This document shows, piece by piece, positions 3,420 to 54,099 of a DNA stretch of 64,000 nt. Location: contig NZ_LMLZ01000025.1 of NCBI RefSeq assembly GCF_001422735.1, positions 680 through 64,679 on the forward strand, written 5' to 3'. A program made the position numbers and the translations under genes. The stretch is from Acidovorax sp. Leaf78 (lineage in GTDB: Bacteria; Pseudomonadota; Gammaproteobacteria; Burkholderiales; Burkholderiaceae_C). The notes below the pieces were generated by a model that made no database searches, was not told the origin of the DNA, and saw only the letters and a list, made by a program, of their open reading frames with translations. The number at the start of each line of letters is the position of its first letter. Positions within the stretch are counted from its first letter, which is position 1.

Positions 3420-3425
3420 GATAAT
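3420..3425 (+). promoter_or_regulatory. -10-like box 7 nt before dapF ATG
   Basis: GATAAT at 3420-3425 ends 7 nt before the dapF start at 3433, so a transcript from it would start at or within a few bases of the ATG. No good -35 hexamer lies 16-18 nt upstream. No Shine-Dalgarno sequence of the usual form is present, which fits a leaderless or near-leaderless mRNA. Confidence 0.4.
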
Positions 3426-3432
3426 CCCGGGG

Positions 3433-4314
3433 ATGCAGATTCGCTTCACCAAGATGCAGGGCGCGGGCAACGATTTCGTCGTGCTCGACGAGACCCAGGG
3501 CCGCCTGGGCCTGTCCACCGCCCAGTACCGCTTTCTGGCGGACCGCCACTTCGGCGTGGGCGCCGACCAGATCCTGACCGTGCGGCCATCGCCCGGCGAC
3601 GGCATCGACTTCGAATACGTGATCCACAACGCCGACGGCGGCGAGGTGGAGCAGTGCGGCAACGGCGCCCGGTGCTTTGCGCGCTTTGTGCACGACAAGG
3701 GCCTGACGGGCCGCGACACGATCCGCGTGCAAACCAGGAGCGGCGTGATCGCCCCCCGCCTCACGGCCGACGGCCGCGTGACGGTGGACATGGGCCGCCC
3801 CGAGTTCGACCCGGCCAAGGTGCCGTTCGACCCCGCCGGCCTCACGCCCGTGGACCAGGGTTCGGGGCAAAAATGGCCGCTGTCGCTCGATGGGCAAGCG
3901 CAAGCAGCTCCTGTTTTTGTAGCGGTGGCCTCCATGGGCAATCCGCATGCCGTGCAGCTGGTGGATAACGTGGACACAGCGCCCGTCGCGCAGACCGGCC
4001 CGCTCATCGAACACCACGCGCGCTTTCCGCAGCGCGTGAACGCCGGCTACCTGCAGGTCGTGGACCGCAGCCATGTGCGGCTGCGCGTGTTCGAGCGCGG
4101 CGTGGGCGAGACCCTGGCCTGCGGCACCGGCGCCTGCGCGGCCGTGGCCTCGGGCATCCGCCTGGGCCTGCTGGACGCCGAAGTGCAGGTCGAGACCCGC
4201 GGCGGGACGCTCACCATCGCCTGGAGCGGCCAGGCGGCCGATTCCGTTTTCATGACCGGCCCGGCCACCACGGTGTTCGAAGGCCAGATCGACATTCCCG
4301 ACACCCTCCTATGA
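3433..4314 (+). CDS. dapF: Diaminopimelate epimerase
   Basis: A 293-residue enzyme that converts LL- to meso-diaminopimelate, feeding lysine synthesis and the MurE step encoded downstream. It begins with the family signature [20 protein letters not shown] and has the two catalytic-cysteine motifs, EQCGNGARC and ACGTGACA. The frame stays open upstream to 3346, but homology starts at 3433. The stop overlaps the DUF484 start (4311). Around residues 154-164 the coding DNA contains a fragment of the dispersed palindromic element (3894-3923), giving the local peptide [10 protein letters not shown]. Confidence 0.97.
3894..3923. repeat. Palindromic-element fragment inside dapF
   Basis: The minus strand reads as the half-element GCTACAAAAACAGGAGCTGC followed by TTGCGCTTGC. 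The 17-mer at 3907-3923 is identical to one inside murD at 23537-23553. It is in frame and does not disrupt dapF. Confidence 0.55.
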
Positions 4315-6220: not shown

Positions 6221-6555
6221 CCCCCCTGAGGCGCTGCGCGCCTTCCCCCGAGGGGGACGCACCCCCTGGTCTGGCAAAGCCGGCTCCACGGGAAGGATGG
6301 GTCGCCCCCTGAGCGGCGTTGCCGCTTCCCCCGAGGGGGACGCACCCCCTGGCCTGGCAAAGCCAGCTCCACGGGTGCACTGGTGGGGGCGGCGCGCGCT
6401 GCGGGCGTTGGTGGTTGCGGGGCCGGTGTCTGGCGCTGATCGGGCATGCCGGTGGGTCGGGGTGGTTCTCGTTGTCTGGGGTCATGGAACCAAGATGTGA
6501 GGCCGTGCATCCGAGCAGGGGGTGCTTGTTGTAGGGCGCCTTGGAGTGTTGTGCC
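6220..6555. other. xerC-lepB intergenic region with tandem dispersed repeats
   Basis: About 335 bp without a supportable gene. It holds two successive copies of the dispersed element, at 6221-6297 and 6304-6390, each with a CCCCCTGAG palindrome, GAGGGGGACGCACCCCCTGG and a GCTCCACGG end. The remainder (6391-6555) is GC-rich with no clear promoter or terminator. Confidence 0.6.
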
Positions 6556-7227: not shown

Positions 7228-7282
7228 GGCCTGGCGCTGAGCTGGCGTGGCGGCGGTGGGCGATGGGGCCGTTCATTCACGC

Positions 7283-7288
7283 GACAAT
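7283..7288 (+). promoter_or_regulatory. -10-like box 9 nt before the rRNA methyltransferase start
   Basis: GACAAT at 7283-7288 lies 9 nt before ATG 7298. No -35 match is visible. It fits the group of starts in this window that are placed immediately after a -10-like hexamer. Confidence 0.25.
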
Positions 7289-7297
7289 CGCCCCATC

Positions 7298-8533
7298 ATG
7301 AAAACCCTTCGCCTTCGCCCTGGCAAAGAGCGCTCGCTCTTGCGCCGCCACCCCTGGATTTTTGAATCGGCCATCGCCAAAGGCGGCGCCGACAGCGGCG
7401 AGACCGTGCGCGTGGAGTCGCACGAGGGCCAGTTCCTGGCCTGGGCTGCGTTCAGCCCCAGCTCGCGCATCCGAGCCCGGGTGTGGAGCTTTGACGAGGC
7501 GCAGCGCATTGATGCTCCTTTTTTCATAGCTGCTTGCGCACGCTCCATCATCGCCAGAGCCCGTTTTGATGTGCAAAGCGACGGTGTGCGCCTGGTGCAC
7601 GGCGAGTCCGACGGCCTGCCCGGCCTCATCGTGGACCGCTACGGCGACACCCTGGTGGCGCAGTTCACCAGCGCCGGGACCGAGCGCTGGAAAGCCGTGA
7701 TCGCCGATGCCCTGCTGCGCGAGACGGGCCTGGCCAAGCTGTATGAACGCTCGGACGCCAGTGTGCGCGCGCTCGAGGGCCTCGAGCCCGCCACCGGCTG
7801 GCTGCGCGGCGGCCCCACGGGTACGCCGGGCGACGGCGAAGGCCCCCCGCTCGAGCTCACCATCCACGAACACCAGTGGAATTTGACGCTGAACATCGCC
7901 GAAGGCCACAAGACCGGCTTCTACCTGGACCAGCGCGACAGCCGCAAGCGCTTTGCCGACTACGCGCAGCGCCTGGGCTTCAAGGACGTGCTCAACTGCT
8001 TTTGCTACACCGGCGGCTTCAGCGTGGCCGCGCTCGCGGGCATGCGCGCCGGCGGCGCATCGGCGGACGGGCATGTGACGTCCATCGACTCGTCGGGCCC
8101 GGCCCTGGAGCGCGCCCGCGCCCATGTGGCGCTCAACGGGTTCGACCTGAACCACGCCAGCTTCATGGATGCGGACGTGAACGCGTCGCTGCGCCAGTTT
8201 CTCAAGGAAGGCCGGCGCTTCGATGCCATCGTGCTCGACCCGCCGAAGTTTGCGCCCACTGCGGCCCACGCCGACCGCGCGGCACGCGCGTACAAGGACA
8301 TCAACCGCCTGGCGCTGCAGTTGCTTTCGCCCGGCGGCGTGCTGTTCACCTTCTCGTGCTCGGGCGGCATCAGCGCCGACCTGTTCCACAAGATCGTCGC
8401 ATCAGCGGGCGCCGATGCGGGCGTGGACGGCTTCATCCTGGAGCGTCTGGGCGGCGCGCCCGACCACCCGATGACCCTCGAATTCCCCGAAGGCGAGTAC
8501 CTCAAGGGCCTGGTGGTGATGCGCAAGGGCTGA
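7298..8533 (+). CDS. rlmI: Class I SAM-dependent rRNA methyltransferase (RlmI-like)
   Basis: A 411-residue enzyme resembling RlmI, which makes 5-methylcytosine at position 1962 of 23S rRNA. The N-terminal PUA domain (about 1-75; LRLRPGKERSLLRRHPWIFE) is followed by a Rossmann-fold methyltransferase with motif I (NCFCYTGGFSVAAL), motif IV (LDPPKFAP) and a Cys motif (FTFSCSGG). The translated start used here follows a run in the same frame from 7247 that lacks homology. The region coding residues 72-81 (7513-7540) holds a fragment of the dispersed palindromic element. The symbol is by family resemblance. Confidence 0.88.
   Translation: MKTLRLRPGKERSLLRRHPWIFESAIAKGGADSGETVRVESHEGQFLAWAAFSPSSRIRARVWSFDEAQRIDAPFFIAACARSIIARARFDVQSDGVRLVHGESDGLPGLIVDRYGDTLVAQFTSAGTERWKAVIADALLRETGLAKLYERSDASVRALEGLEPATGWLRGGPTGTPGDGEGPPLELTIHEHQWNLTLNIAEGHKTGFYLDQRDSRKRFADYAQRLGFKDVLNCFCYTGGFSVAALAGMRAGGASADGHVTSIDSSGPALERARAHVALNGFDLNHASFMDADVNASLRQFLKEGRRFDAIVLDPPKFAPTAAHADRAARAYKDINRLALQLLSPGGVLFTFSCSGGISADLFHKIVASAGADAGVDGFILERLGGAPDHPMTLEFPEGEYLKGLVVMRKG
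7513..7540. repeat. Palindromic-element fragment inside rlmI
   Basis: On the minus strand this reads TGCGCAAGCAGCTATGAAAA then AAGGAGCA. The GCGCAAGCAGCT part is identical to the dapF copy. It is in frame, encoding part of DAPFFIAACARS. Confidence 0.5.
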
Positions 8534-13319: not shown

Positions 13320-13341
13320 GCGTCGATGGTGATTTACTCTC

Positions 13342-13391
13342 AATTTGATAGCTGCTAGCGCTTGTACAGAAAGCGGTAGCGGCTGTTTTTG
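13342..13391. repeat. Palindromic element copy between hslV and hslU
   Basis: Left arm 13351-13363 (GCTGCTAGCGCTT), 7-nt loop 13364-13370, right arm 13371-13383 (AAGCGGTAGCGGC), complementary at 11 of 13 positions. The flanks are AT-rich (TTTGATA before, TGTTTTTG after). It belongs to the same family as 41462-41512 and 54040-54096. Confidence 0.75.
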
Positions 13392-13417
13392 CTCAGAATT
13401 TTGAAGGCAGGCCCCGC

Positions 13418-16787: not shown

Positions 16788-18529
16788 GCCGCAGCGTGGT
16801 CTACACCGCCAGCCCCTTGCTGGCCAGCAAGACGCCCGTCTGGCGCAGCAAGTTCATCGTGGCCATGATCGCCCTGGGCTTTTTGGCGCTGGCCGGGCGC
16901 GCAGCCTATGTACAGGTGTTCGGCAACGCGTTCTTTCAGCGCCAGGGCGAGGTGCGTTTTGCGCGCACCCTGGAGCTGCCCGCCAACCGCGGCAAGATCC
17001 TGGACCGCAATGGCCTGATCCTCGCGTCCAGCGTACCGGCGGCCAGCATCTGGGCCATCCCCGAAGACGTGGAACAAGACAAGCCCGAGACGCGTGCCAA
17101 GCTCAAGCAGCTGGCCAAGCTGCTCGACATGCCGCTGGCCGAGCTGCAAAAGAAGCTGGCCGACGAAGACAAGACCTTCGTCTGGATCAAGCGCCAGCTC
17201 GACTGGGATGTGGGCCGCGAGATCGCGGCGCTCGACATCAAGGGCATCTACCAGCGCAAGGAATACAAGCGCCAGTACCCCGAAGGCGAAGCCGCCGCCC
17301 ACGTGGTGGGCTTCACCAACGTGGAAGACCACGGGCAGGAAGGCATGGAGCTGGCCTTCGACAAGGACCTGGCCGGCAAGGCCGGGTCGCGCCGCGTGAT
17401 CAAGGACCGGCTGGGCCGCGTGGTCGAGGGCGTGGGCGAGACGGTGCAACCCGTCGACGGCAAGGACATGCAGCTGTCCATCGACAGCAAGGTGCAGTTC
17501 TTCGCATACCAGAAGCTGCGCGACCAGGTCGCGCTGCACAAGGCCAAGGCGGGCAGCGTGGTGGTGCTCGATGCGCACACCGGCGAGCTGCTGGCGCTGG
17601 CCAACTACCCGAGCTACGTGCCCGACAAGCGCCAGAACCTGACCGGCGAGCAACTGCGCAACCGCGCGCTCACCGACGTGTTCGAGCCCGGCTCGACCAT
17701 GAAGCCCTTCACCATCGGCCTGGCCCTGGAGAGCGGGCGCGTGCGCCCCGAGACGCCGGTGGACACCAACCCCGGCCGCATCAACATCACCGGCTCCACC
17801 ATCTCGGACACGCACAACTACGGCCTGCTCACGGTCGAGGGCGTGATCCAGAAGTCGAGCAACGTGGGCACCACCAAGATCGCGATGCAGATGCCTGCCC
17901 GCGAGATGTGGGAGACCTTCTCGGCCGCGGGCTTCGGCCAGAAGCCGCAGCTGCACTTCCCCGGCGTCGTGACCGGGCGCCTGCGGCCCTACAAGACCTG
18001 GCGCCCTGTCGAGCAGGCCACCATGTCCTACGGCTACGGCCTGTCGGCCAGCCTGTTCCAGATGGCGCGGTCGTACACCGTGTTCGCCAACGGCGGCCGC
18101 GTGATCCCGGCCACCATGTTCAAGACGTCCGAGCCTGCGCTGGGCGTGCCCGTGTTCTCCGAGCGCACGGCCGACCAGGTGCGCAAGATGCTGCAGATGG
18201 CCGCCGGCCCCGGCGGCACGGGCCAGAAGGCGCAGACCCTGGGCTACTCGGTGGGTGGCAAGTCCGGCACGGCGCGCAAGCAGGTCGGCAAGAACTACGC
18301 ATCGGGCAAGTACCGCGCCTGGTTCACCGGCATGGCGCCCATCGACAAGCCGCGCATCATCGTGGCCGTGATGATCGACGAGCCCAGCAACGGCGTGTTC
18401 TACGGCGGTGCCGTGGCTGCGCCCGTGTTCAGCGAAGTGGTGCAGCAGACCCTGCGCATGATGGGCGTGCAGCCGGACATGGCCGTCAAGCCCCAGATCG
18501 TGGCCAACACGGTGGAGGAATCGCTATGA
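16784..18529 (+). CDS. ftsI: Septal peptidoglycan transpeptidase FtsI (PBP3)
   Basis: A 581-residue class B penicillin-binding protein that cross-links septal peptidoglycan with FtsW. A short cytoplasmic tail and one transmembrane anchor (about 24-45) precede the pedestal (about 60-240) and transpeptidase domains. Catalytic motifs: S304-x-x-K (PGSTMKPF), S-S-N around 358-360 (KSSNVG) and K493-S-G (GGKSGTARK). The stop overlaps murE by 4 nt (ATGA). Length is typical. Confidence 0.97.
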   Translation: MSRSVVYTASPLLASKTPVWRSKFIVAMIALGFLALAGRAAYVQVFGNAFFQRQGEVRFARTLELPANRGKILDRNGLILASSVPAASIWAIPEDVEQDKPETRAKLKQLAKLLDMPLAELQKKLADEDKTFVWIKRQLDWDVGREIAALDIKGIYQRKEYKRQYPEGEAAAHVVGFTNVEDHGQEGMELAFDKDLAGKAGSRRVIKDRLGRVVEGVGETVQPVDGKDMQLSIDSKVQFFAYQKLRDQVALHKAKAGSVVVLDAHTGELLALANYPSYVPDKRQNLTGEQLRNRALTDVFEPGSTMKPFTIGLALESGRVRPETPVDTNPGRINITGSTISDTHNYGLLTVEGVIQKSSNVGTTKIAMQMPAREMWETFSAAGFGQKPQLHFPGVVTGRLRPYKTWRPVEQATMSYGYGLSASLFQMARSYTVFANGGRVIPATMFKTSEPALGVPVFSERTADQVRKMLQMAAGPGGTGQKAQTLGYSVGGKSGTARKQVGKNYASGKYRAWFTGMAPIDKPRIIVAVMIDEPSNGVFYGGAVAAPVFSEVVQQTLRMMGVQPDMAVKPQIVANTVEESL

Positions 18530-20037
18530 CGGCAAGCACGCTGCCCCTGCTGGCCTCGGTGCACGACGCCGTGGCCTGGCTGCGCGAACGCGTCACCGGC
18601 ACGCTGCAGACCGACAGCCGCCTGGTCCGCGCGGGCGATGGCTTCATCGCCTGGCCCGGCGCCGCCACCGATGGCCGCGCGCACATCGGCGACGCTTTGG
18701 CACGCGGTGCAGTGGCGTGCCTGGTGGAGCACGAAGGCGTCGAGGCCTTCCCGCTCGACGGCTGGCCGGTGGCGGCCCTGCACGGCCTGAAAGCCGCCAC
18801 CGGGCTGATCGCGGCCGACTGGTTCGGCCACCCCACGCAGCGCCTCGACGTGCTGGCCGTGACCGGCACCAACGGCAAGACCAGCACCACCTGGTGGCTG
18901 GCCGAAGCCCTGAATGTGCTATCAAGAAGTGAGCTGATTGCGCACGGTGGATGCGCGGTAGTGGGCACTTTGGGCATCGGCGTTCCGCCTGCGCTCACCA
19001 CCACCGGCATGACCACGCCCGACCCGGTGCGGCTGCAGCACGCCTTTCAGCAGTTCACCGACGCGGGCCGCACGGCGTGCGCCATCGAGGCCTCGTCCAT
19101 CGGCCTGGCCGAGCACCGCATGGCCGGCAGCCGCATCCGCGTGGCGCTGTTCACCAACTTCACGCAGGACCACCTGGACTACCACCCCAGCATGGCCGCC
19201 TACTGGCAGGCCAAGGGCATGCTCTTCGAGTGGCCCGGCCTGCAGGCGGCCGTGGTCAACATCGACGACCTGCGGGGCGCCGAGCTGTACGCATCGCTGG
19301 CAGACCGCATGCTGGACCTCTGGAGCGTGTCCATATCCGGCCCCGCACGGCTGGCTGCACGCGACATCGGCATGGGTGATGGCGGCCTGCGTTTCACCGT
19401 GGCCGAGGGCGCGCACACGCATGTGCTGCAAACGCGCGTGATCGGGCTGTACAACGTCTCCAACCTGCTCGGGGTGCTGGCCGGCCTGCGGGCGCTGGGC
19501 GTGCCGCTGGAGCACGCGCTGTATGCGTGTGCCCAGCTCACGCCGGTGCCCGGCCGCATGGAACAAATCCACAGCCCCGGCCAGCCGCTGGTGGCCGTGG
19601 ACTACGCCCACACGCCCGATGCGCTGGAAAAGGCCCTGCAGGCGCTGCGCCCCATCGCGGCCGAGCGGGGCGGGCAGCTGTGGTGCGTGTTCGGCTGCGG
19701 CGGCGACCGCGACGCGGCCAAGCGCCCTCTGATGGGCGCGGTGGCGCAGCGCCAGGCCGACCATGTGGTCGTGACCAGCGACAACCCGCGCAGCGAAGAC
19801 CCCGCCACCATCGTGCACCAGATCCTGCAAGGCACCATTGCCGGTCGCACGGTGCGCGCCGAGCCCGACCGTACCGCCGCCATCGCCCTCGCACTGGCCG
19901 AGGCCTCACCGGCCGATGTGGTGCTGATCGCCGGCAAGGGCCACGAAGACACCCAGGAGACCGCGGGCGTGCGCGTGCCGTTCTCCGACAAGGCCCATGC
20001 ACGCACTGCGCTGCAGGCCCGGGAGGCCCGCCCATGA
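18526..20037 (+). CDS. murE: UDP-N-acetylmuramoyl-tripeptide synthetase (meso-diaminopimelate ligase)
   Basis: A 503-residue cytosolic ligase that adds meso-diaminopimelate to UDP-MurNAc-L-Ala-D-Glu. The ATP loop is VTGTNGKTSTTWW, and TNFTQDHLDYHPSM and VVTSDNPRSEDP are family blocks; DNPR is the meso-DAP recognition motif. Starts inside the ftsI stop (ATGA) and overlaps murF the same way. Near residues 131-145 the coding DNA (18917-18962) contains a palindromic-element copy, giving LNVLSRSELIAHGG between the P-loop helix and the next strand. Confidence 0.97.
   Translation: MTASTLPLLASVHDAVAWLRERVTGTLQTDSRLVRAGDGFIAWPGAATDGRAHIGDALARGAVACLVEHEGVEAFPLDGWPVAALHGLKAATGLIAADWFGHPTQRLDVLAVTGTNGKTSTTWWLAEALNVLSRSELIAHGGCAVVGTLGIGVPPALTTTGMTTPDPVRLQHAFQQFTDAGRTACAIEASSIGLAEHRMAGSRIRVALFTNFTQDHLDYHPSMAAYWQAKGMLFEWPGLQAAVVNIDDLRGAELYASLADRMLDLWSVSISGPARLAARDIGMGDGGLRFTVAEGAHTHVLQTRVIGLYNVSNLLGVLAGLRALGVPLEHALYACAQLTPVPGRMEQIHSPGQPLVAVDYAHTPDALEKALQALRPIAAERGGQLWCVFGCGGDRDAAKRPLMGAVAQRQADHVVVTSDNPRSEDPATIVHQILQGTIAGRTVRAEPDRTAAIALALAEASPADVVLIAGKGHEDTQETAGVRVPFSDKAHARTALQAREARP
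18917..18962. repeat. Palindromic-element copy inside murE
   Basis: TGCTATCAAGAAGTGAGCTG then ATTGCGCA, a 7-nt loop at 18945-18951, and TGCGCGGTAG at 18952-18961. Five innermost pairs are perfect and the outer arm is degenerate. It is in frame. Confidence 0.5.
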
Positions 20038-22760: not shown

Positions 22761-24805
22761 ACCCGGACGATCCCCTCATCCCCGCGACCACCACCCCCTC
22801 GGTGGTGAAGCTGCCTCCAGACACGGATGCAGGCGGGGCCGTGCCTGCCGATCCAGCGGCGGAGGGCGCGGTGTCGCAGTCCGCTGGCGACGCGGCAGGT
22901 GCAGGCACTGCCGATCCGGCGGATGGCGCATCAACCGTGCCCGACATGTCCGGCACGTCCGGCAGTGCACCCACGCAGTCGTTGGTCGATGCCGAGGCAT
23001 CAGCAGAATCCGTAGACCCCCAGCCCGAGGCCGAAGCTCCAGCCGCCGGCCCCGGCGCGCGCGCGGCAGCAGCCGCCGCCGCTGCGTGGGACCCCGAAAA
23101 GCCCCCGGCCATCTCCGCTGCCAAGGCTGCTGCCGACTTCGTCGCGCAGATCTTTGCCGACGTGGTGGCCGCCGACGCACCTGCGGACCCAGAGCCTGTG
23201 GCACAGCAGGACAACGCCGATGCCGCCGCGGAGCCTGCAGCTGATGCGCCCACCGAACCCCTGGGCCCCCCCGGCCAGGGCATGACGCCACTGCAGGGCC
23301 AGAACATCCTCATCCTGGGCCTGGGTGCCTCCGGCCTGGCCATGGCGCGCTGGTGCGTGCGCTGCGGCGCCGACGTCACTGTGGCCGACACGCGCGAAGC
23401 GCCTCCGCAACTCGCCACGCTGCAGCACGAGCTGCCCGGGGTGCGTTTTGTGGCCGGCGCCTTCGACGCAGCCCTGGTGGACGGCCGAGGCCTGCACGCG
23501 GTCTACCGGTCGCCAGGCCTGAGCCCCGATACGGTTGCTCCTGTTTTTGTAGCTGCTCGCGCCATCGGACTGCCGGTGGGGGGCGAATTGAGCCTGTATG
23601 CCATGGCCCTGGCCACGCTGCGGGCGTCCCACGGCTACGCGCCGGCCGTGCTGGCCATCACCGGCACCAACGGCAAGACCACCGTCACCTCGCTCACCGG
23701 CCAGCTCGTGGAGCGCTCGGACAAGACCGTGGCCGTGGCCGGCAACATCGGCCCCACGCTGCTCGACACGCTGGCGGGCCACATCGACGCGGCCACACTG
23801 CCGCAGGTGTGGGTGCTGGAGCTGTCGAGCTTCCAATTGGACGACGTGACTGTGGGGGAGGGAGCTTTCGAGCCCACGGCCGCCACGGTGCTCAACATCA
23901 CGCAGGACCATCTGGACTGGCATGGCGACATGGCCGCGTATGCCGCTGCCAAGGCCCGCATCTTCGGCAAGACCGGCCTGATGATCCTGAACCGCGAGGA
24001 CGCGGCGGTGATGCAGATGCTGCCGCCACCCATCAAGGTCAAGCTGCAAAAGCCCCAGGTGCGCGAGCACCTGACCTTCGGCGCCGACATGCCCCAGCGC
24101 CCCGGCGACTTCGGCATCGAGGTCGTGAGCGGCATGCCCTGGCTGGTGCGCGCCATGGACGCCGACGAGACCCGCAAGCGCGGCCGCAACGAGGCCGCCG
24201 AAGACCTGCACATCCAGCGCCTGATGCCCGCCGACGCGCTGCGCATCCGGGGCCGCCACAACGCGGTGAACGCGCTGGCCGCGCTGGCGCTGGCATCGGC
24301 CGCGGGCTGCACGCTCGCGCCCCTGCTGTACGGGCTGCGCGAGTACCGCGGCGAGCCGCACCGCGTGGAGCCGGTGGCCATCATCCGCGACGTCGAATAC
24401 TTTGACGACAGCAAGGGCACGAACGTGGGCGCCACCGTCGCTGCGTTGACCGGCCTGGGTGCGGAGCGCCGCATCGTCGTCATCCTGGGCGGCGACGGCA
24501 AGGGGCAGGACTTCTCGCCGCTGGCAGCGCCCGTGTCGCGCTACGCGCGCGCCGTGGTGCTGATCGGGCGCGACGCGCCGCTGATCCGCGCCGCGCTGGC
24601 CGACAGCGGCGTGGCCCTGGTCGATGCAGAGACATTGCCCCAGGCCGTGGAGCTGGCCGCGCAGCGCGCACACGCAGGCGACGCCGTGCTGATGTCGCCC
24701 GCCTGTGCCAGCTTTGACATGTTCCGCGGCTACGAGCACCGGGCACAGGTGTTCTGCGACACCGTGCGCGCGCTGGCCGATGACGCGATGGGAGGTGTGG
24801 CATGA
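22757..24805 (+). CDS. murD: UDP-N-acetylmuramoylalanine--D-glutamate ligase with long N-terminal extension
   Basis: A cytosolic ligase adding D-Glu to UDP-MurNAc-L-Ala. From ATG 22757, which overlaps the mraY stop, it has 682 residues; MurD is usually 440-500. The recognisable enzyme begins at Met176 (23282; then [20 protein letters not shown]), with the ATP loop [13 protein letters not shown] and [13 protein letters not shown]. Residues 1-175 are Ala/Pro/Asp/Glu-rich with no known domain. The alternative start 23282 has no Shine-Dalgarno sequence and would leave a 520-bp hole in a tightly packed operon, so I favour the long form. A palindromic-element fragment (23537-23562) and a further insertion around residues 420-485 add length. 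Confidence 0.93.
23535..23562. repeat. Palindromic-element fragment inside murD
   Basis: TTGCTCCTGTTTTTGTAGCT then GCTCGCGC. The 17-mer 23537-23553 is identical to dapF 3907-3923 and is read in the same frame in both genes (APVFVA). Confidence 0.6.
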
Positions 24806-26073
24806 GCGCACCCGCCAGCAGCCTTTTGCAGCGCGTGACCGGCTGGTTCGGCGGCCTGCCGGGCAAGGCCGTGGACGTGCTGCCCGTGCGCGTGGGCGGC
24901 ACCGACTACCGCCCCCGCACCACCAGCACGCCCGCGAGCGTGCTCGGCTTCGACCAGGCCCTGCTGTGGGTGGTGGTGGCGCTGCTCGCATGGGGGCTGG
25001 TGATGGTGTATTCGGCCTCCATCGCCATGCCGGACAACCCGCGCTTTGCCAACTACGCTTCCACCCATTTCCTGACCCGCCACGTGATGTACCTGGTGGT
25101 GGGCTTTGTCGCCGCGCTGCTGGCGTTCCAGATCCCGATGGCGCTGTGGGAGCGCGTGGCACCCTGGCTCTTCGTGGCAGCGTTGCTGCTGCTGGTGGCG
25201 GTGCTGATCCCGGGTGTGGGCAAGGTGGTCAACGGTGCGCGGCGCTGGCTGTCGCTCGGTCCCATCGGCTTTCAGCCGTCGGAGGTGGCCAAGTTCGCCG
25301 TCCTCATCTACGCGGCCGACTACATGGTCCGCAAGATGGAGGTGAAGGAGCGGTTCTTTCGCGCCGTGCTGCCCATGGGCGCCGCCGTGGCCATCGTGGG
25401 CGTGCTGCTGCTGGCCGAGCCCGACATGGGCGCCTTCATGGTGGTCGCCGTGATCGCCATGGGCATCCTGTTCCTGGGCGGCGTGAACGCCCGCATGTTC
25501 TTCCTGATCGCGGGCGTGCTGGTGTCGGCCTTCGGCGTGATGATCGCCAGCTCGCCCTGGCGTCGCGAGCGCGTGTTCGCCTACCTCGACCCGTTCAGCG
25601 AAGAGCACGCATTGGGCAAGGGCTACCAGCTCTCGCACTCGCTGATCGCCATCGGGCGCGGCGAGATCTTCGGCGTGGGCCTGGGCGGCAGCGTCGAGAA
25701 GCTGCATTGGCTGCCCGAAGCCCATACCGACTTCCTGCTCGCCGTGATCGGCGAAGAGTTCGGCCTGGTGGGCGTGGTCATCCTCATCGTGCTGTTTCTG
25801 TGGATGACGCGCCGCATCATGCACATCGGCCGCCAGGCCATCGCCCTCGACCGCGTGTTCTCCGGCCTCGTCGCGCAGGGCGTGGCGATCTGGATCGGCT
25901 TCCAGGCCTTCATCAACATGGGCGTGAACCTGGGCGCACTGCCCACCAAGGGGCTCACGCTGCCGCTGATGAGTTTTGGCGGGTCGGCGATCTTGATGAA
26001 CCTCGTGGCGCTGGCGGTGGTGATGCGGGTGGACTACGAGAACAAACTCCTCATGAGAGGGGGGCGCGTATGA
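24802..26073 (+). CDS. ftsW: Septal peptidoglycan glycosyltransferase FtsW
   Basis: A 423-residue SEDS-family membrane protein that polymerises lipid II at the septum with FtsI. About ten transmembrane helices follow a cytoplasmic N-terminal tail of about 50 residues. Family signatures: [30 protein letters not shown] (with the essential Asp of the ExD segment), [20 protein letters not shown] and FVxx-type C-terminal helices with [15 protein letters not shown]. It overlaps murD and murG by 4 nt each. Confidence 0.97.
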
Positions 26074-27131
26074 CGCAGAAGACTGCCCTCATCATGGCCG
26101 GCGGCACCGGCGGCCACATCTTCCCGGGCCTGGCCGTGGCGGAAGAACTGCGTGCGCGCGGCTGGCGCGTGCACTGGCTGGGCGCGCCGGGCAGCATGGA
26201 GTCGCGCATCGTGCCCACGCATGGCTTTGCGCTCGAACTCATCGATTTTTCAGGCGTGCGCGGCAAAGGCCTCATCACGCTGGCCTTGCTGCCGCTGCGC
26301 CTGCTGCGCGCGTTCTGCCAGGCACTGGCGGTGGTGCGCCGCGTCAAGCCCGACGTGGTGGTGGGCCTGGGCGGCTACATCACCTTTCCGGGCGGCATGA
26401 TGGGCGTGCTGGCCGGCAAGCCGCTGGTGCTGCACGAGCAGAACTCGGTGGCCGGCATGGCCAACAAGGTGCTGGCGGGCGTGGCAGACCGTGTGTTCAC
26501 AGCGTTCCCCAATGTGTTCCCCAAGGGCCAGTGGGTGGGCAACCCGCTGCGCACCGCCTTCACCAGCAAGCCCGCACCGGCGGAGCGTTTTGCCGGGCGC
26601 ACGGGGCCGCTGCGCCTGCTGGTGGTGGGCGGCAGCCTGGGCGCCCGTGCGCTCAACGAGATCGTGCCGCAGGCCGTGGCGCTGATGCCTGCGGACCAGC
26701 GCCCGGTGGTCATCCACCAGAGCGGCGCGACGCAGATCGACGCGCTGCGCGCCAACTATGCCGCGGCAGGTGTCGCGGCCGAATGCACGCCGTTCATCGA
26801 CGACACCGCCAGCGCCTTTGCCGACGCCGACATCATCGTCTGCCGCGCGGGCGCGAGCACCGTGACCGAGATCGCGGCCGTGGGGGCAGCCGCACTGTTC
26901 GTGCCCTTCCCCTCGGCGGTGGACGACCACCAGACCACCAACGCCCAGTTCCTCGTGAATGCAGGCGGCGGGTGGCTCACCCAGCAGCGCGACCTGACGC
27001 CCGAAGGCCTGTCGCAGATGCTATTGAATATGGAGCGCTCCACGCTGGTAGATACAGCGTTGAAAGCCAAAAACATGCAAAAAATCAATGCCACCCGCGA
27101 AGTGGTGACCGCCTGCGAGGAGTTGGCATGA
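26070..27131 (+). CDS. murG: Lipid II synthase MurG (UDP-GlcNAc transferase)
   Basis: A 353-residue peripheral membrane GT-B glycosyltransferase that adds GlcNAc to lipid I. The first G-loop is [30 protein letters not shown] and [12 protein letters not shown] follow, then the UDP-GlcNAc site [15 protein letters not shown] and [16 protein letters not shown]. The C-terminal helix region (about residues 317-336, coded at 27018-27074) is formed by a full copy of the dispersed palindromic element. ATGA overlaps join it to ftsW and murC. Confidence 0.97.
27018..27074. repeat. Full palindromic element inside murG
   Basis: 57 bp, exactly 19 codons, in frame. Left arm 27035-27047 (GCGCTCCACGCTG), 7-nt loop 27048-27054, right arm 27055-27067 (CAGCGTTGAAAGC), 10 of 13 paired. 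The flanks TGCTATTGAATATGGA and CAAAAACA match the AT-rich flanks of the intergenic copies. It encodes [19 protein letters not shown]. Confidence 0.65.
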
Positions 27132-28561
27132 AGCACGCCATTCGCCACATCCATTTTGTCGGCCTGGGCGGCGCCGGCATGAGCGGCATCGCCGAGGTGC
27201 TGTTCAACCTGGGCTACCGCATCTCGGGCTCCGACCTGGCCGACAGCGCCACGCTGCGGCGCCTGGAGGGCCTGGGCATCAAGACCTGCCTGGGCCATGC
27301 CGCGGCGCACATCGACGGTGCCGATGCGGTGGTCACGTCCACCGCCGTGACGCCCGACAACCCCGAGGTGCTGGCCGCGCGCGAGAAGAAGATCCCGGTC
27401 GTGCCGCGCGCGCTCATGCTGGCCGAGCTGATGCGCCTGAAGCAAGGCATCGCCATCGCGGGCACGCACGGCAAGACGACGACGACCAGCCTCGTGACCA
27501 GCGTGCTGGCCGAGGCAGGGCTCGACCCGACCTTCGTCATCGGCGGCAAGCTCAACAGCGCGGGCGCCAACGCCAAGCTGGGCAGCGGCGACTACATCGT
27601 GGTCGAGGCCGACGAGTCCGACGCGTCGTTCCTGAACCTGCTGCCGGTGATGGCCGTGGTGACCAACATCGACGCCGACCACATGGAAACCTACGGGCAC
27701 GACTTCGGTCGGCTCAAGGGTGCGTTCGTCGACTTCCTGCACCGCATGCCGTTCTACGGCACGGCCGTGCTGTGCGTGGACAGCCCCGCGGTGCGCGAGA
27801 TCATGCCCAGCGTGACCTGCCCGATCACCAGCTACGGCTTTTCGGAAGACGCCCAGGTGCGCGCGATCAACGTGCGCGCCGAGGCCGGGCAGATGCGCTT
27901 CACCGTGCAGCGTCGCAACGGCGTCACGCTGCCCGACATGGAGGTGGTGCTCAACCTCGCGGGCGAGCACAACGTGCTCAACGCACTGTCGGCCATCGCG
28001 ATCGCGGTGGAGCTCAACATCCCCGACGAAGCCGTGCAGCGCGCGCTGGCGGGCTTCAAGGGCGTGGGTCGGCGCTTCCAGCACTACGGCGACATGCCGG
28101 CCAAGGGCGGCGGCGCGTTCACCGTGATCGACGACTACGGCCACCACCCGGTGGAGATGGCCGCCACGCTGGCGGCCGCGCGCGGCGCGTTCCCCGGGCG
28201 GCGCCTGGTGCTGGCCTTCCAGCCGCACCGCTACAGCCGCACGCGCGACTGCTTCGAAGATTTCGTGAAGGTCATCGGCAACGCCGACGCCGTGCTGCTG
28301 ACCGAGGTGTACGCCGCCGGCGAGGCACCCGTGGTGGCCGCCGACGGCCGCTCGCTGGCCCGCGCGCTGCGGGTGGCCGGCCGCGTGGAGCCCGTGTTTG
28401 TCGACAACGTGGCCGACCTTCCGCAGGCCATTGCCGACAACGCCCGGGCGGGCGATGTGGTGATGTGCATGGGCGCAGGCTCCATCGGGGCCGTGCCCGG
28501 CAAGGTGGTCGATTTGCTACAAAACAATGAGCTGAAGGCGCTGGAGGGGAGCGCGGTATGA
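27128..28561 (+). CDS. murC: UDP-N-acetylmuramate--L-alanine ligase
   Basis: A 477-residue cytosolic ligase that starts the stem peptide by adding L-Ala to UDP-MurNAc. The N-terminal Rossmann loop is [20 protein letters not shown], the ATP loop [12 protein letters not shown], and [23 protein letters not shown] and [11 protein letters not shown] are family blocks. The final 15 codons run through a half-copy of the palindromic element (28515-28545), giving the tail [15 protein letters not shown]. The stop overlaps ddlB by 4 nt. Confidence 0.97.
28515..28545. repeat. Palindromic-element half-copy at the 3' end of murC
   Basis: TGCTACAAAACAATGAGCTG followed by AAGGCGCTGGAGG: the AT-rich left flank and left arm of the element, with the rest missing. 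It supplies the last codons of MurC. Confidence 0.45.
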
Positions 28562-29556
28562 CTGTTTCTGAACTCGATATCGATGTGAAGGCCCTGGGCA
28601 AGGTCGCCGTTCTGATGGGCGGCGACTCTGCCGAGCGCGAGGTGTCCCTCATGTCCGGCAGCGGCGTGCTGCAGGCGCTGCGCTCCAGCGGCGTGGACGC
28701 GCATGCGTTCGACCCGGCGCAGAACGAGCTGTCGCAACTCAAGCGCGACGGGTATGCGCGCTGCTTCATCACGCTGCACGGCCGCCGGGGCGAGGATGGC
28801 ACTGTGCAGGGCGCTTTGGAACTGCTGGGCATTCCGTACACCGGCCCGGGCGTGCTGGCCTCGGCCATTGCGATGGACAAGGTCATGACCAAGCGCATGT
28901 GGATTGCCGAGGGCCTGCCAACGCCGCGCTATGTGCGCCTTCCCCCTGACTTGCAGGCGCGCGAGCATGTGCGCCTGGTGCCGGACGAATTGGGCCTGCC
29001 GCTCATCGTCAAGCCACCACGCGAAGGGTCGTCCATCGGCGTATCGAAGGTGCGCGGCTACTCTGAAATGCAGGACGCGGTTGCCTTGGCTGCGAAGTAC
29101 GACCCCGACGTGCTCTGCGAAGAGTTCATCGACGGCGAGGAGGTCACCTGTGCTGTGCTGGGTGAGGGCGCGCATGCGCGTGCACTGCCTGTGATCCGCA
29201 TCCTTGCCCCCGAAGCGGGCTACGACTACCAGAACAAGTACTTCACCGACGACGTGAAGTACGAGTGCCCGAGCGGCATGCCGGAAGACGAAGAGCAGGA
29301 AATACAGCGCATCGTGCTGGCGAGCTACCGCGCGCTGGGATGCCGCGGCTGGGGCCGTGCCGACTTGATGATTCGCGCGAGCGACCGCAAGCCCTTCCTG
29401 CTGGAGATCAACACATCCCCTGGCATGACGGGCCACTCCCTGGTGCCCATGGCTGCGCGTGCGGCCGGTATCAGCTACGAGGAGCTGTGCCTGCGCATTC
29501 TGGCCGGGGCAGCCCTGGATGCGCCGCGTGCCGCACAAGGAGCCGCCCACCCATGA
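28558..29556 (+). CDS. ddlB: D-alanine--D-alanine ligase
   Basis: A 332-residue ATP-grasp enzyme that makes D-Ala-D-Ala for MurF. The N-terminal [19 protein letters not shown], central [18 protein letters not shown] and C-terminal [16 protein letters not shown] are family signatures. ATG 28558 overlaps the murC stop, and the end overlaps ftsQ. The name ddlB follows the dcw position. Confidence 0.96.
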
Positions 29557-41203: not shown

Positions 41204-41682
41204 GAAGGTTCGGGCGCTGTCGGCGATGGATGAAGGCGGAGCAACACCGGCGGATGCAGCAGATGCAGCGGGTGCACCGTCAGGTTGCCAAGCCTGTCAT
41301 TCTTCTCAAAGCGGGCCCTGCGCTCCAGCGGTCACGGGCCAGTGGGTTTGTCGGACATCGCTGACAGCGGGCGCCGGGGTGCTCTGTTCGGTATCAGCCT
41401 GAAGTCACGCGGGGCCGCAGTGTGACGGGACGTTGACGTCAGGTGACGGAGGATTTTGGGATTTTTAGGCCTCTACCGCTTGTTAGGTATGCGCTAGCAG
41501 CTATTGAAAGCATAGCAATCGCTGCAAGTGCAAGGCCGGGCCAGCAATCGCTGAGAGGCCGTCAGCGGTGCAGAGGTAGCGTGGGCAGAGCGCAGCGCGG
41601 GCTCAGCGCAGACGAAAGGGCAGGGCGCGTCAACGCCGCGCGAGCCCGGGCCCCACCACGGGCCACCCGCCACGGAGCTCTG
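41204..41682. other. 479-bp intergenic region between the EF-hand gene and gspE
   Basis: The EF-hand gene's upstream region and the 3' side of gspE. The only structure I see is the palindromic repeat at 41462-41512. No terminator follows gspE and no gspF remnant is recognisable in any frame. Confidence 0.5.
41462..41512. repeat. Palindromic element copy downstream of gspE
   Basis: Left arm 41469-41481 (GCCTCTACCGCTT), 7-nt loop 41482-41488, right arm 41489-41501 (ATGCGCTAGCAGC). Flanks GATTTTTAG and TATTGAAAGCAT. Its left arm is the exact complement of the right arm of the copy at 54040-54096, so it is inserted in the opposite orientation. Confidence 0.75.
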
Positions 41683-43090: not shown

Positions 43091-45679
43091 TTACAGCGGC
43101 TGCGCCGCCACCGTGGCGTTCAGCGCCAGCTTGCCGCGCACAGTGGCTGCGGCAGCCTGGGCAGCCTCTTCGGTCGCATAGGGACCCACGCGCACGCGGG
43201 TGGCTGTGCCGCGGTTGGTCTCCACCGACTGCAGCGCCAGCGGCAGCGCCGAATTGCGCAGGCGGGCCATCGAGGCCATGGACTGCGCGTCATCGCCGAA
43301 AGTGCCGACGTTGACGTAGTACAGAGACACAGTGCTGCTCATCGGCGTGGTACCCGGCACGGGCTGCGCTGGCGGCGTCACTGGTGTCAGCTCTTGCAGC
43401 GGCGCAGGTACGGGCACGACGGATGGAGGGATAGGGGCTGGACGTGCCACGGGAGCCGCGCGCTCGGCCAGTGCCGGCAGCACTGGTGCCCCGGACACCG
43501 AGCCCATCACCAAGCTTGGTGCGGGCTGGGTGGAGTGTTGCAGCGCGCGGATGGCTTCGTAGCGGTCGACCACCAAGGCTTCGCTGGTGGCGTTGTCACG
43601 CACCACGATCGGCCGCAGGAAGATCATCAGGTTGGTCTTGCTGCGCTTGCGGTTCTCACTCTTGAACAGGTTGCCCACCACGGGCAGGTCGCCCATCACG
43701 GGGACCTTGTCTTCGCCCTGCGAGTAGGTGTCCTCCAGCAGGCCGCCGATCACGATGATGCTGCCATCGTCCACCAGCACGTTCGACTCCACCGAGCGTT
43801 TGCTGGTGCTGGGGCCGTTGACGTTGTTGCGGGTCGCATCGTCGATCTTGGAGATTTCCTGGTAGATCGCCATCTTCACGGTGCCGTTCTCGCCGATCTG
43901 CGGACGCACCTTGAGCATCAGGCCCACGTCCTTGCGCTCCACGGTGGTGAAGGGGTTCACCGTGCTGCTGCCGGTGGAGTTGGCGTACGAGCCTGTGACA
44001 AACGGCACGTTGGTGCCGATGAGGATCCGGGCCTCTTCGTTGTCCAGCGTCATGATGTTGGGAGTCGACAGCACGTTGGCATCGCCGCTGTTTTGAAGAA
44101 AGTTGGCCAGTGCGCCCAGGTAGTACTGACCATTGATGCGCGGCGCCAGGGCCAGGTTCAGGCCGCCGCCCAGGCCGGCCGCCGCCGTGGCGATGGTGGT
44201 GGCGTTGCCCGAAGCGATGGCCGCTGTCACGCCCAGGATGTTGGCTCCGGCAGCGCCGGAATTCGTGCCGATGACGCCCACGGTGCCATCGCCCTGCTTG
44301 CCCAGGATGCCCTGCCACTGGATGCCGAACTGCGCCACTTTGTTGGCCGCGACTTCGACGATCAGGCTTTCCACCAGCACCTGTGCACGCCGCCCGTCGA
44401 GTTGGTCGATCACGGCACGCAGCTGGCGGTATAGCGGCTCGGGCGCCGTGATGATGAGCGAATTGGTGGTGGGGTCCGCCTGGATCTGACCGCCGGTGGA
44501 CGGCTGGTTGTTGTTGGTGCTGGCGGTGCCCATGGTGTTGTTGCCACCGCCCAGCCCTCCGTTATTGCCGGCTGACAGGCCCGTACCCGTCGACAGCATG
44601 CTCCCGCTGTTGTTGCCGCCGCTCAGGCTGCCGCTCTGCGCAGCGGGGCTGCTGGCACCGCCGCCGACGGCGGCACCCCCCGAGCTGTTGCCAGTGCCCA
44701 TCGCCGCCATGGCAGCGCGCAGTGTGGTCGCGAGCTTGGTGGCGTCGGCGTTCTTGAGGTAGACCACATGGATGTTGCCCGTGGCCGCACTACTGCCGGG
44801 CACGGGTGCCTGGTCCAGCCGGTCCACCAGTGCGCGTACCTGCGCCACGCGGGCCGGGTTGGCGGCGCGCAGGATCAGCGAGTTGCTGCGCGGCTCGGCG
44901 ATCAGCGTGGTCTTGAACGACGTGTCCGATTGCCCCTGGCCAGCGGCCGGCACGCCAACGGCGGCACTGCCGCCGTCGATGAGGCGCGCCACCAGCGGCG
45001 CCAGGTCAGTGGCCACGGCGTTGCGCAGAGGGATCACCTCCACGTCGCTGGCGTTGGAGACGTCCATGGCCGCCACGATGCGTGCCAGGCGCTGCAGGTT
45101 GTCGGCGTAGTCGGTGATCACCAGCGAGTTGTTGCCGGGGTTCACGTTGATGGTGTTGTTGGGGCTGATCAGGGGGCGCAGCACGGGCACCAGGTTGGCC
45201 GCGTTTTCAAAGTTCAGCTTGAAGATCTGCGTGACGATCTGCCCGCCGCCGGGCGCGCTGCCGGAGCTGCCCTGCACCACGCTCACGCTGCCGCCCTGCA
45301 GCTTGGCGTCGGCCTCGGGCACCACCTTGTACAGGCCCGCCGCTTCGACCACGGTGAAGCCCTGCAGGCGCAGCGCGGCCAGGAACTGCTGGAAGGCCGC
45401 TGCCGGGGTCACGGCACGCTCGGTGACGAGGTTGAGCTGGCCCTTGACGCGGGGGTCGACCACCACGTTGCGGCCGGTGATGGTGGCCATGGTGCGGGCC
45501 ACGGCTTCGATCTCGGCGTTGGCAAAGTTCAGCGTGACCGGCTCGCCGGAGCGCACGCTGCCGGTGCGGGTGTCGATCGCGGTTTGTGCATTGATTTGGC
45601 CGCTGACGCAAGCCAGCAGGACGCTGGCAGCTATCGCTTTGAGAGCAAAATCGAGGCGGGGTGAGAGCAAGGAAGTCAT
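43091..45679 (-). CDS. gspD: Type II secretion secretin GspD with C-terminal SPOR-like domain
   Basis: An 862-residue outer-membrane secretin from ATG 45679 (4 nt after gspN); the frame is open upstream to 45727. A signal peptide ends near INAQ, though LLAC could be a weak lipobox. N0-N3 domains follow, with a Gly/Ser/Asn-rich insert in N3, then the secretin core (VPVMGDLPVVGNLFKS). After a Pro-rich linker (about 745-785), the last 75 residues (43091-43320) read YYVNVGTFGD ... RVRVGPYATEEAAQ, a SPOR-like fold that binds peptidoglycan in other proteins. Secretins usually end in an S-domain for a pilotin instead. The signal-peptide region contains a palindromic-element fragment. Confidence 0.95.
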   Translation of the reverse strand: MTSLLSPRLDFALKAIAASVLLACVSGQINAQTAIDTRTGSVRSGEPVTLNFANAEIEAVARTMATITGRNVVVDPRVKGQLNLVTERAVTPAAAFQQFLAALRLQGFTVVEAAGLYKVVPEADAKLQGGSVSVVQGSSGSAPGGGQIVTQIFKLNFENAANLVPVLRPLISPNNTINVNPGNNSLVITDYADNLQRLARIVAAMDVSNASDVEVIPLRNAVATDLAPLVARLIDGGSAAVGVPAAGQGQSDTSFKTTLIAEPRSNSLILRAANPARVAQVRALVDRLDQAPVPGSSAATGNIHVVYLKNADATKLATTLRAAMAAMGTGNSSGGAAVGGGASSPAAQSGSLSGGNNSGSMLSTGTGLSAGNNGGLGGGNNTMGTASTNNNQPSTGGQIQADPTTNSLIITAPEPLYRQLRAVIDQLDGRRAQVLVESLIVEVAANKVAQFGIQWQGILGKQGDGTVGVIGTNSGAAGANILGVTAAIASGNATTIATAAAGLGGGLNLALAPRINGQYYLGALANFLQNSGDANVLSTPNIMTLDNEEARILIGTNVPFVTGSYANSTGSSTVNPFTTVERKDVGLMLKVRPQIGENGTVKMAIYQEISKIDDATRNNVNGPSTSKRSVESNVLVDDGSIIVIGGLLEDTYSQGEDKVPVMGDLPVVGNLFKSENRKRSKTNLMIFLRPIVVRDNATSEALVVDRYEAIRALQHSTQPAPSLVMGSVSGAPVLPALAERAAPVARPAPIPPSVVPVPAPLQELTPVTPPAQPVPGTTPMSSTVSLYYVNVGTFGDDAQSMASMARLRNSALPLALQSVETNRGTATRVRVGPYATEEAAQAAAATVRGKLALNATVAAQPL
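45626..45647. repeat. Palindromic-element fragment in the gspD signal-peptide region
   Basis: On the minus strand, TGCTCTCAAAGCGATAGCTG then CC: the AT-rich flank and first arm bases of the element. It encodes LKAIAAS in the hydrophobic core of the signal peptide. Confidence 0.35.
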
Positions 45680-45683
45680 AGGG

Positions 45684-46493
45684 TCAACCCACGGTGATGA
45701 TGGAGCGCGCGCCGCTGCGCCGTCCAATGATGTTCAGAAGATTGGCCAGGGCCGCTTCGCGCTCGGGGGCGGCGCTGGCCTCGCCCGTGAAGCGCAGGCG
45801 CTGGCCCACCCATTGGCCCGAGCCGCTCAGCTGCAGGTGTCCGTCGAGCGTGCTCAGCGTGAGCGTGGGCACTTCGCCGCCCTGCACCGCCAGCCTGTAG
45901 CTGCCCATGGGGCGCAGGGTGGACAGGCGCGATGACATCGCCCGTGCGTCCAGTTGCGCCTGGCCTGCCAGCGCCATGCGGCCCGCGCTCCAGCGGGCGG
46001 TGAGGCCACGGGTCTGCAGCACCAGTTGGCCTTGGGGCTGCAGGGTGTTCCAGGGGGTGCCCAGCCCCGTCAGCACCGACGCGGGCCACAGGCTTTCGCC
46101 GTCGATCACGGTGAGCTGTGCACCGTACAGGCCCGCGCCGATCTGCAGTTGCAGCGGCTGGGGTGTGCAGCAGTCCGCATGGATCTGCGCGCGCAGGCCG
46201 CTGAAGCTGGGGCGTATGCGCCAGTCCAGGCGGCCGGGCAGGGCGGCGCGGTCTTGGCTGGCGCTGCCGCCGGTCAACACCAGTTGCGCCGACCCGGTCC
46301 ATACCGTGCCGCGCGCCTGCAGCAGCTGCACCTGCCCCCCGGTGGCGTCAGTCACGCTGTGGGCCAGCCACTGCGCCGGCGCAAACACCACCATGGCGGG
46401 CAATACGCCTGCCAGGGCGCCCGCCAGCGCCCAGCCCCAGGCAGAGCGGGGCGTTTGCGAAGCAGGTGGTCGGTGTCGGGAATAAGTGGCCAC
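45684..46493 (-). CDS. gspN: Type II secretion protein GspN
   Basis: A 269-residue bitopic inner-membrane protein of the type II system. One N-terminal transmembrane helix (about 20-42; ALAGALAGVLPAMVVFAPAQ) precedes a periplasmic beta-rich domain. The C-terminal GRRSGARSIITVG is the GspN signature. GspN is present in only some systems and its role is unclear. The gene lies between gspM and gspD in the operon. Confidence 0.9.
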   Translation of the reverse strand: MATYSRHRPPASQTPRSAWGWALAGALAGVLPAMVVFAPAQWLAHSVTDATGGQVQLLQARGTVWTGSAQLVLTGGSASQDRAALPGRLDWRIRPSFSGLRAQIHADCCTPQPLQLQIGAGLYGAQLTVIDGESLWPASVLTGLGTPWNTLQPQGQLVLQTRGLTARWSAGRMALAGQAQLDARAMSSRLSTLRPMGSYRLAVQGGEVPTLTLSTLDGHLQLSGSGQWVGQRLRFTGEASAAPEREAALANLLNIIGRRSGARSIITVG

Positions 46494-49584: not shown

Positions 49585-50381
49585 GACCTGCCTCCGCCCA
49601 GCAGGGGGTTCACCCAGTCGCGCGTGAGCTGCCCGACCAGCGCCTGGCCCGGGGGCAGCGTGATCTGCAGGCGCACGCCGTCAGGGATGGCGGCCGTGGT
49701 GCTCTCGGCGGTGGTCGAGCCGCTGCTCGATTGCGCGTTGGACCAGGCACCGCCGCGGTAGTAGAAGATCTGCCAGTCCTGCAGCGGCAGCAGCGCCATC
49801 TCGTAGCGCCGCTCCGCGTCGCCAGGGGTGCGCGCCCACTGGGCGGCCAGCGCCCAGGCCTCTTGCCACTGAGCGCGCGTGCGCACCGGGGGCGATTGCC
49901 AGCGTACCCACTGGCCCGCGCCCTGCGCGCCGCGCAGCGTCCAGGCCACCACCAGCGCGCCCTCGTCGGGCACGGCACTGGTGCGGCGCGTCAGGCGCAG
50001 CACCTGGCCGTCCCAGTCGAGCGGCGTGGTGTTGGCAATCGGCATCAGTGCATCGAGGTCCGTGCCCCACTGGCCCAGGGACGACTGCAGCACCAGCATC
50101 TCATCGGCCCGCTGCCGCGTGATCTCCTGCGCCCGCACCATGCCATCGAGCCCGCGCCAGCTGAGGATGGCCAGCAGGCTCATCACCGCAATCGCGAGCA
50201 GCAGCTCGACCAGCGTGAAGCCGCGCGCAGTCTTCGAGGCCGATCTGCGTTGAGAAATACGGAACCGTTCACGTTGAGCTGATCCAAGCGCTGCGCGAGG
50301 CTTCGACAAGCTCAGCCCGAACGGTTTGGGCGTATGGGATACAGGGCCGCATGCAAGCGGCGCAGTGCAAGGCAAAGGCAT
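49581..50381 (-). CDS. gspJ: Type II secretion minor pseudopilin GspJ (start uncertain)
   Basis: A pseudopilin whose cleavage site is ARG/FTLVELLLAIAV; the mature part is 212 residues (F at 50217-50219), the usual size. The start is obscured: the first ATG upstream in frame is 50381, which gives a 266-residue protein with an improbable 54-residue leader coded partly by REP-like DNA (50264-50326). TTG 50309 gives a 30-residue leader. Neither has a good Shine-Dalgarno sequence. The frame is open to 50804 inside repeats. The stop overlaps gspK by 4 nt. Confidence 0.8.
   Translation of the reverse strand: MPLPCTAPLACGPVSHTPKPFGLSLSKPRAALGSAQRERFRISQRRSASKTARGFTLVELLLAIAVMSLLAILSWRGLDGMVRAQEITRQRADEMLVLQSSLGQWGTDLDALMPIANTTPLDWDGQVLRLTRRTSAVPDEGALVVAWTLRGAQGAGQWVRWQSPPVRTRAQWQEAWALAAQWARTPGDAERRYEMALLPLQDWQIFYYRGGAWSNAQSSSGSTTAESTTAAIPDGVRLQITLPPGQALVGQLTRDWVNPLLGGGRS
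50264..50326. repeat. REP-like inverted pair at the gspJ 5' end
   Basis: ACCGTTCACGTTGAGCT and AGCTCAGCCCGAACGGT form an imperfect inverted repeat (13 of 17 paired) around a 29-bp centre. The right half belongs to the TTCGACAAGCTCAGCCCGAACGG family also found at 147-214. Confidence 0.65.
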
Positions 50382-54007: not shown

Positions 54008-54039
54008 GGCGTGCGTGACCTGGAGTGCGGTGGGGGTTT

Positions 54040-54096
54040 GCTACAATTTTTATAGCTTCTAGCGCTTGTCTATCAAGCGGTAGAGGCCATTTTTGT
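54040..54096. repeat. Palindromic element copy between ilvA and cobS
   Basis: GCTACAATTTTTATA flank, left arm 54055-54067 (GCTTCTAGCGCTT), 7-nt loop 54068-54074, right arm 54075-54087 (AAGCGGTAGAGGC), flank CATTTTTGTGC. The arms pair at 11 of 13 positions. It lies directly after the ilvA stop. Confidence 0.75.
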
Positions 54097-54099
54097 GCA

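Follow-up and report, generated by a model that had tools for sequence, protein, structure and literature searches.

The murG gene of Acidovorax sp. Leaf78 contains, in frame, a palindromic segment that resembles a repeat dispersed between genes of the same genome, which raises the question of whether the repeat was inserted into murG, was copied over codons that were already there, or came to resemble them in some other way. We addressed this question in a window of 64,000 nucleotides, i.e., the whole stretch of DNA analysed (Table 1), and in related genomes. The segment comprises murG codons 317-335 (27018-27074), 57 nt that are free of stop codons, and the palindrome described in the sequence-only reading, with 13-nt arms and a 7-nt loop as read from the fold, was confirmed, with 10 of the 13 arm positions matching. 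Its RNA fold was only mildly better than those of shuffled sequences (z = -1.91). The GC content was 0.46 in the segment vs 0.71 over the remainder of the gene. The closest named matches to the MurG protein of the window belong to Acidovorax (99% to Acidovorax sp. Leaf191).

Table 1. Coordinates of murG and of the repeat copies and element-like segments in the window (CM, covariance model).
Feature	Position	Strand	Remarks
murG, host gene	26070..27131	+	353 aa; Glyco_transf_28 N- and C-terminal domains; PDB MurG chains
Element-like murG segment	27017..27074	+	In-frame palindrome over codons 317-335 and one further base; length same as in relatives
Codon 318, rare Leu codon CTA	27021..27023	+	Within outer box TGCTAY of the element
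In-frame copy in dapF (3346-4314, +)	3864..3929	-	Element antisense to gene; CM E = 1.9e-8
In-frame element-like segment in rlmI-like gene (7247-8533, +)	7508..7573	+	CM E = 1.1e-5
In-frame element-like segment in murE (18526-20037, +)	18912..18977	+	Variable-length loop; CM E = 0.007
In-frame element-like segment in murD (ends 24805, +)	23531..23595	+	CM E = 2.2e-4
Element-like 3' end of murC (27128-28561, +)	28510..28574	+	Weak in window, CM E = 1.1
Element-like segment near N-terminus of gene 43091-45727 (-)	45587..45652	-	CM E = 0.0052
Intergenic element copy	13330..13395	+	CM E = 2.1e-13
Intergenic element copy	41457..41522	-	CM E = 1e-10
Intergenic element copy	54034..54099	+	CM E = 1.4e-18 (copy included in model)

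Two copies of the repeat in the window share 73% identity across 88 nt, and one window copy matched 41 places in its own genome by BLAST. An alignment of 30 of these places gave the consensus TTTGCTACnnATTTnATAGCTGCTAGCGCTTGTCTATCAAGCGGTAGAGGCCATTTTT and was used both as a covariance model (R1; 66 positions, 0.85 bits per position) and as a position matrix (PWM), from which murG was left out. The repeat is about 58-66 bp long, and its own 5.75-Mb genome holds at least 150 R1 copies. The PWM scored above 0 at 39 distinct places in 464 kb of this genome, while reversed or permuted matrices did so at none. The three intergenic copies of the window are dispersed and have a GC content of 0.42-0.47. 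No Rfam model matched any element in the window; the sole Rfam match there was RF02278, the Betaproteobacteria toxic small RNA (55775-55837, - strand, 64.5 bits).

Under strict filters (E <= 1e-7), R1 was found in 13 of the 42 family genomes searched, the richest being G085 (97 copies), G015 (94), G010 (70), and G072 (47); all seven distant-branch genomes included in the search were without such matches. A half-element pattern was present in 10 of 17 genomes, its reversed control giving one match over all 17, and murG was of the element type in 9 of the 10 pattern-positive genomes vs 0 of the 7 pattern-negative ones, two of the pattern matches (in G047 and G070) being murG itself. Repeat abundance and the state of murG are not strictly coupled: murG is not element-type in G010 or in G023 (15 R1 copies), and G071 has an element-type murG, yet no R1 copy at E <= 1e-7 and 14 half-elements by pattern.

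The murG copy of the window is insignificant on its own (CM 7.9 bits, E = 6.5; PWM rank 9 in the window), and the reversed PWM gave two scores as high as that of the murG site in 464 kb. The kinship proposed earlier between this segment and the dispersed palindromic element was borne out by comparison of orthologs, not by the window copy alone. CTA stands at codon 318 in 60 of 81 murG orthologs, and only 14 CTA codons occur at all other aligned codons combined. When seven cell-wall genes from 40 Comamonadaceae-like orthologs were scanned with the PWM (17,646 combinations of position, strand, and phase), the top family-mean score fell on the third base of murG codon 316 on the + strand (-30.9; next -46.9; outgroup -78.7), and murD codon 85 ranked second by the mean of the 20 best rows. 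Against synonymous shuffles, the mean z was +3.8 in 78 CTA-bearing murG orthologs (72 above 2) and 0.4 in 63 non-CTA orthologs (6 above 2); 11 outgroup murG rows gave about 0, with no element signal. At 558 control positions the shuffle z was -0.03 +/- 0.49 with a maximum of 1.47, compared with 2.62 for murG in the same 10 rows. R1 also matched murG directly in two relatives (L164, E = 0.00027; L145, E = 0.0055; 629 kb searched). Judging from these comparative tests, which are decisive, the kinship of the murG segment to the repeat is beyond chance once orthologs are compared.

The sequence-only reading held that the element supplies 19 codons of murG. These codons are indeed in frame, but no residues were added: the 80 named orthologs, and likewise the 61 rows of a wider alignment (11 of them outgroup), are all free of indels in the segment. 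MurG of Escherichia coli (1f0k) aligns without gaps through the segment, and the first-ranked PDB chain, 3s2u, was aligned with two extra residues there. From residue 300 to the end, MurG has 54-59 residues in CTA rows vs 55-62 in the outgroup. R323 is present in 11 of 11 outgroup and 16 of 19 CTA rows, and L326 and A333 are also common to both. Homologous residues thus stand at this place in every MurG seen, as had been anticipated for a chance resemblance, but their substitution pattern is abnormal, as the 60 CTA codons among 81 orthologs indicate. In-frame insertion in murG was rejected by the ungapped alignments (80 named orthologs, 61 rows, and E. coli MurG), and, as far as these alignments tell, the element lies over the codons of the native C-terminal helix of MurG, the length being unchanged.

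Over codons 317-335, identity to the outgroup is 0.30 in element-type rows vs 0.41 in other Comamonadaceae-like rows. Outgroup residues over 317-336 are matched at 0.42 by element-free rows vs 0.29 by element rows (22 against 25 rows), a difference reached by none of 500 permutations in which relatedness was ignored. Element-free rows therefore look ancestral, and the element state would be derived. The latter occurs in 22 of 60 murG rows and needs at least 14 changes on a tree built without the segment, a count that has no shuffle baseline and in which the tree does not tell gain from loss. This scatter suggests that the element was gained repeatedly in murG.

The repeat is thus present in frame in conserved Comamonadaceae genes, and a degenerate copy lies in murG of Acidovorax and of many, not all, other genera sampled; in murG, native helix codons have been replaced without a change in length, and rare codons are kept at synonymous sites. 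The reading that we prefer, with a probability of about 0.45, is that the repeat was copied over native murG codons by templated replacement, more than once in the family. Element DNA would have been copied from a putative donor onto a murG stretch already resembling the element, the candidate routes being short-patch templated replacement (by strand annealing or by template switching at a fork), gene conversion, and annealing like that of short-patch double illegitimate recombination (SPDIR). The survivors would be those versions that retained the residues MurG needs. The same process may lie behind the overlays in murD and moeA described below, and in the tolerant loops of purL, dapF, rlmD, and murE the copies would also have added residues. 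We propose more tentatively, as a wider claim that is rather doubtful at present, that this repeat invades genes without inserting, i.e., by in-frame overwriting in several conserved genes and repeatedly at the same murG codons across lineages, after which rare codons are held.

The strongest competitor, which we consider unlikely, is that point mutations in situ created the murG segment under selection for a nucleotide-level site (a protein-bound dyad, or a signal in the mRNA or the chromosome) also present in the repeat. The unchanged length of murG is in keeping with this view, as are the many in-gene copies that occupy native, alignable positions and the long retention of rare codons of the outer box in several genes. 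In the Acidovorax subset, the CTA of murG is kept in 25 of 25 rows and ranks 1 of 347 columns; in dapF, GTA (20/22), GCT (22/22), and GTT (21/22) rank 2, 3, and 6 of 289, and in rlmD, GTA (20/21) and GCT (19/21) rank 4 and 5 of 465. The first-ranked codon column of purL, dapF, and rlmD falls outside the element, however, and a repeat of 66 positions averaging 0.85 bits each is longer and richer in information than a binding site requires. Nor does the central stem of purL covary: in the 21 of 22 rows that were used, 75.6% of cells were paired vs 76.2% after shuffling. Selection for the hairpin was rejected on this ground, the purL stem decaying without covariation, and because rare codons are kept at the same time, it is the outer box that is held, not the hairpin. 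The rare codons may persist because the outer box has a function at the nucleotide level or because conversion recurs. In column 84 of the rlmD alignment, a rare CTA is kept in 18 Acidovorax rows outside the known element and perhaps marks a second site.

Less probable again is an ancestral insertion of the rickettsial kind later balanced by the deletion of as many native residues. This repeat family does insert, as the extra residues of its purL, dapF, rlmD, and murE copies indicate. PurL is 3-8 residues longer than in 6 of 6 other-family rows and 7 longer than Salmonella PurL; DapF is 4-11 residues longer than in 6 of 7 such rows and 1 shorter than in L276; RlmD is 7 residues longer than in 6 of 7 and equal to L310. 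The half-element of murE lies in a variable-length loop, and eight outgroup rows are 7 residues shorter than the window among the matches listed. In most comparisons, these four copies are of the RPE kind. In murG, however, native R323, L326, and A333 are common to element-type rows and the outgroup, E. coli MurG is ungapped, and the tail lengths of CTA rows and outgroup are alike as given above. Exact compensation would be needed in moeA too, where MoeA of G070 aligns with 1fc5 without gaps through the stretch encoded by the half-element. MurD differs from 7sy9 by two residues, and the copies in murD (CM E = 1e-6 in L141) and moeA look like overlays.

The claim that in-frame copies also occur in other Comamonadaceae genes held true for purL, dapF, rlmD, and murE, with extra residues in most comparisons, and several in-gene copies score stronger than the murG copy. 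Those of purL, dapF, and rlmD are antisense to the gene and visible by eye in 22/24, 22/23, and 21/23 same-genus loci, respectively. In one genome of the Acidovorax group (G123; L243, L273, and L301), element DNA is absent from all three genes together; in G120, rlmD is without the element and purL has a longer, diverged form. The 3' end of murC, weak in the window, scores 21.0 bits (L145) and 18.3 bits (L141) at the same place in relatives. Gene names were checked by NCBIfam, Pfam, or PDB and include ComEC, IleS, UvrA, AddA, and a Sua5/TsaC-like synthase that is 2 residues shorter than 6f87. By an ORF heuristic, 12 of the 39 places with PWM > 0 lie in genes, which is taken as a rough figure only, given the coarseness of the heuristic, which picked the wrong strand at the murG site and probably overcounted at least one N-terminal case (L217). 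Among 29 half-element matches listed, 12 are in the frame LLxKxELLAL of a strong ORF, 9 are without a strong ORF, and 8 differ in frame or strand; this last group includes L365, which is murG given the wrong strand. In AddA-like genes of two genera (L360 and L367; G000 and G070), the peptide context of the half-element is shared, LLxKTEL...VLM being followed by QxKxWxDSLPPHDAL.

It is very unlikely that the dispersed repeat arose from a 3' fragment of murG in an ancestral member of the Comamonadaceae, which would make murG its progenitor. Copies in murG do occur in numerous genera, and replacing TAG by GAG in the in-frame reading of the element yields a peptide similar to the MurG helix; against this, the copies of murD, dapF, and moeA can likewise be read as native protein, in other frames or strands, where a single gene could be the source, and element-free murG rows look ancestral. 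A chance resemblance due to amino-acid composition and AT-rich codons, compatible with the E-value of 6.5 for the window copy alone, was rejected at the level of the family, given a sound PWM, as scarcely credible in view of the retention of CTA at codon 318, the CM matches in L164 and L145, the synonymous-shuffle z, the family-mean scan of 17,646 combinations, and the 558 control positions.

Two further identities of the repeat were considered. DNA uptake sequences (DUS/USS) have a short core that recurs about once per kb; the top over-represented 12-mers of the element occur only 8 times per 464 kb, by which the uptake-sequence reading was rejected. As regards mobility by a RAYT, the presence of Y1_Tnp shows no link to element content, the gene being found in 22 of 25 genomes, element-bearing or not. 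An element match of low score (13.7 bits; E = 0.014 over 3.3 kb; L371, 2151-2214, - strand) lies near the one Y1_Tnp gene found in the genome of the window. Contig C1 of G015 has 20 Y1_Tnp matches, several equal in score and broken in two frames, which resembles a recent expansion of the IS200 type.

If overwriting is confirmed, conserved enzymes can be shaped by repeats with no trace in their length, and surveys based on gaps will miss such sites because the length is left unchanged; the retention of rare codons offers a means of finding them. Two routes from repeat to protein, insertion as in RPE and overwriting, would then be kept apart. With hundreds of copies in sequenced genera, the repeat also provides a natural system for short templated replacement in bacteria.

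As to novelty, in-frame palindromes in coding regions are already known from RPE and intragenic REPs, as the passages cited below describe. The earlier statement that nothing of this kind was described for Comamonadaceae stands for the in-frame copies, which were not found described as such in a literature search that subscription papers mostly lay outside of, and fails for the repeat itself, part of which was listed in 2017. In that survey, as far as the relevant parts of the paper go, the motif GCTTAT(N)5AAGCG of Acidovorax ebreus has 114 copies, 5 of them in genes and most intergenic (PMC5217627). It fits the central stem of the present copies, and the two most likely belong to the same family by sequence; in those parts it was published as an intergenic motif pair, with no analysis of an element, of in-frame copies, or of murG. 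Another motif, ATAGCT(N)22CAAAAG of Polaromonas, has 125 copies, of which 18 are in genes (PMC5217627); it has ATAGCT in common with the present consensus, but its spacing does not fit. What is new is the overlay in place with lasting retention of rare codons, for which templated replacement is the mechanism we infer.

The BRE repeat likewise occurs in Comamonadaceae, with some copies inside genes; it is described as 75-91 bp long, often tandem, with an average GC content of 69% in Bordetella and 1-4 copies listed for Acidovorax genomes (PMC3110155). Identity with BRE was rejected by composition, length, and layout, the window copies being dispersed and of GC 0.42-0.47. Near-tandem pairs of GC-rich repeats in the window (50353-50583 and 6222-6375; 99 nt at 84% and 71 nt at 87%) may be BRE-like. 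The intragenic REPs of the GTAG and CGTC families are, like the Comamonadaceae repeat, short palindromes in coding regions, found in several species and also in DNA repair genes (PMC3733652). Their inserts are described as interrupting ORFs, unlike the murG overlay, and Acidovorax, Delftia, Variovorax, Polaromonas, and Burkholderia were not found in the passages on intragenic REPs (PMC3733652). In mitochondria of Nematomorpha, coding inverted repeats lie over conserved residues without being extra inserts, for which template switching was proposed (PMC6649704), and in this they are like the murG overlay; they form no dispersed family, according to the same source, and have perfect arms of up to 142 bp.

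A close parallel in the passages compared is with the rickettsial palindromic elements (RPE), repeats of 105-146 bp that occupy intergenic sites and also, in frame, conserved genes, into which they insert extra residues (PMC2229807). The Comamonadaceae repeat likewise has intergenic copies and in-frame copies in conserved genes, and its copies in purL, dapF, rlmD, and murE bring extra residues in most comparisons. It is set apart by the description of RPE in its length of about 58-66 bp and its apparently different sequence, and, unlike RPE, its murG copy adds no residues and its murD and moeA copies change the length little or not at all.
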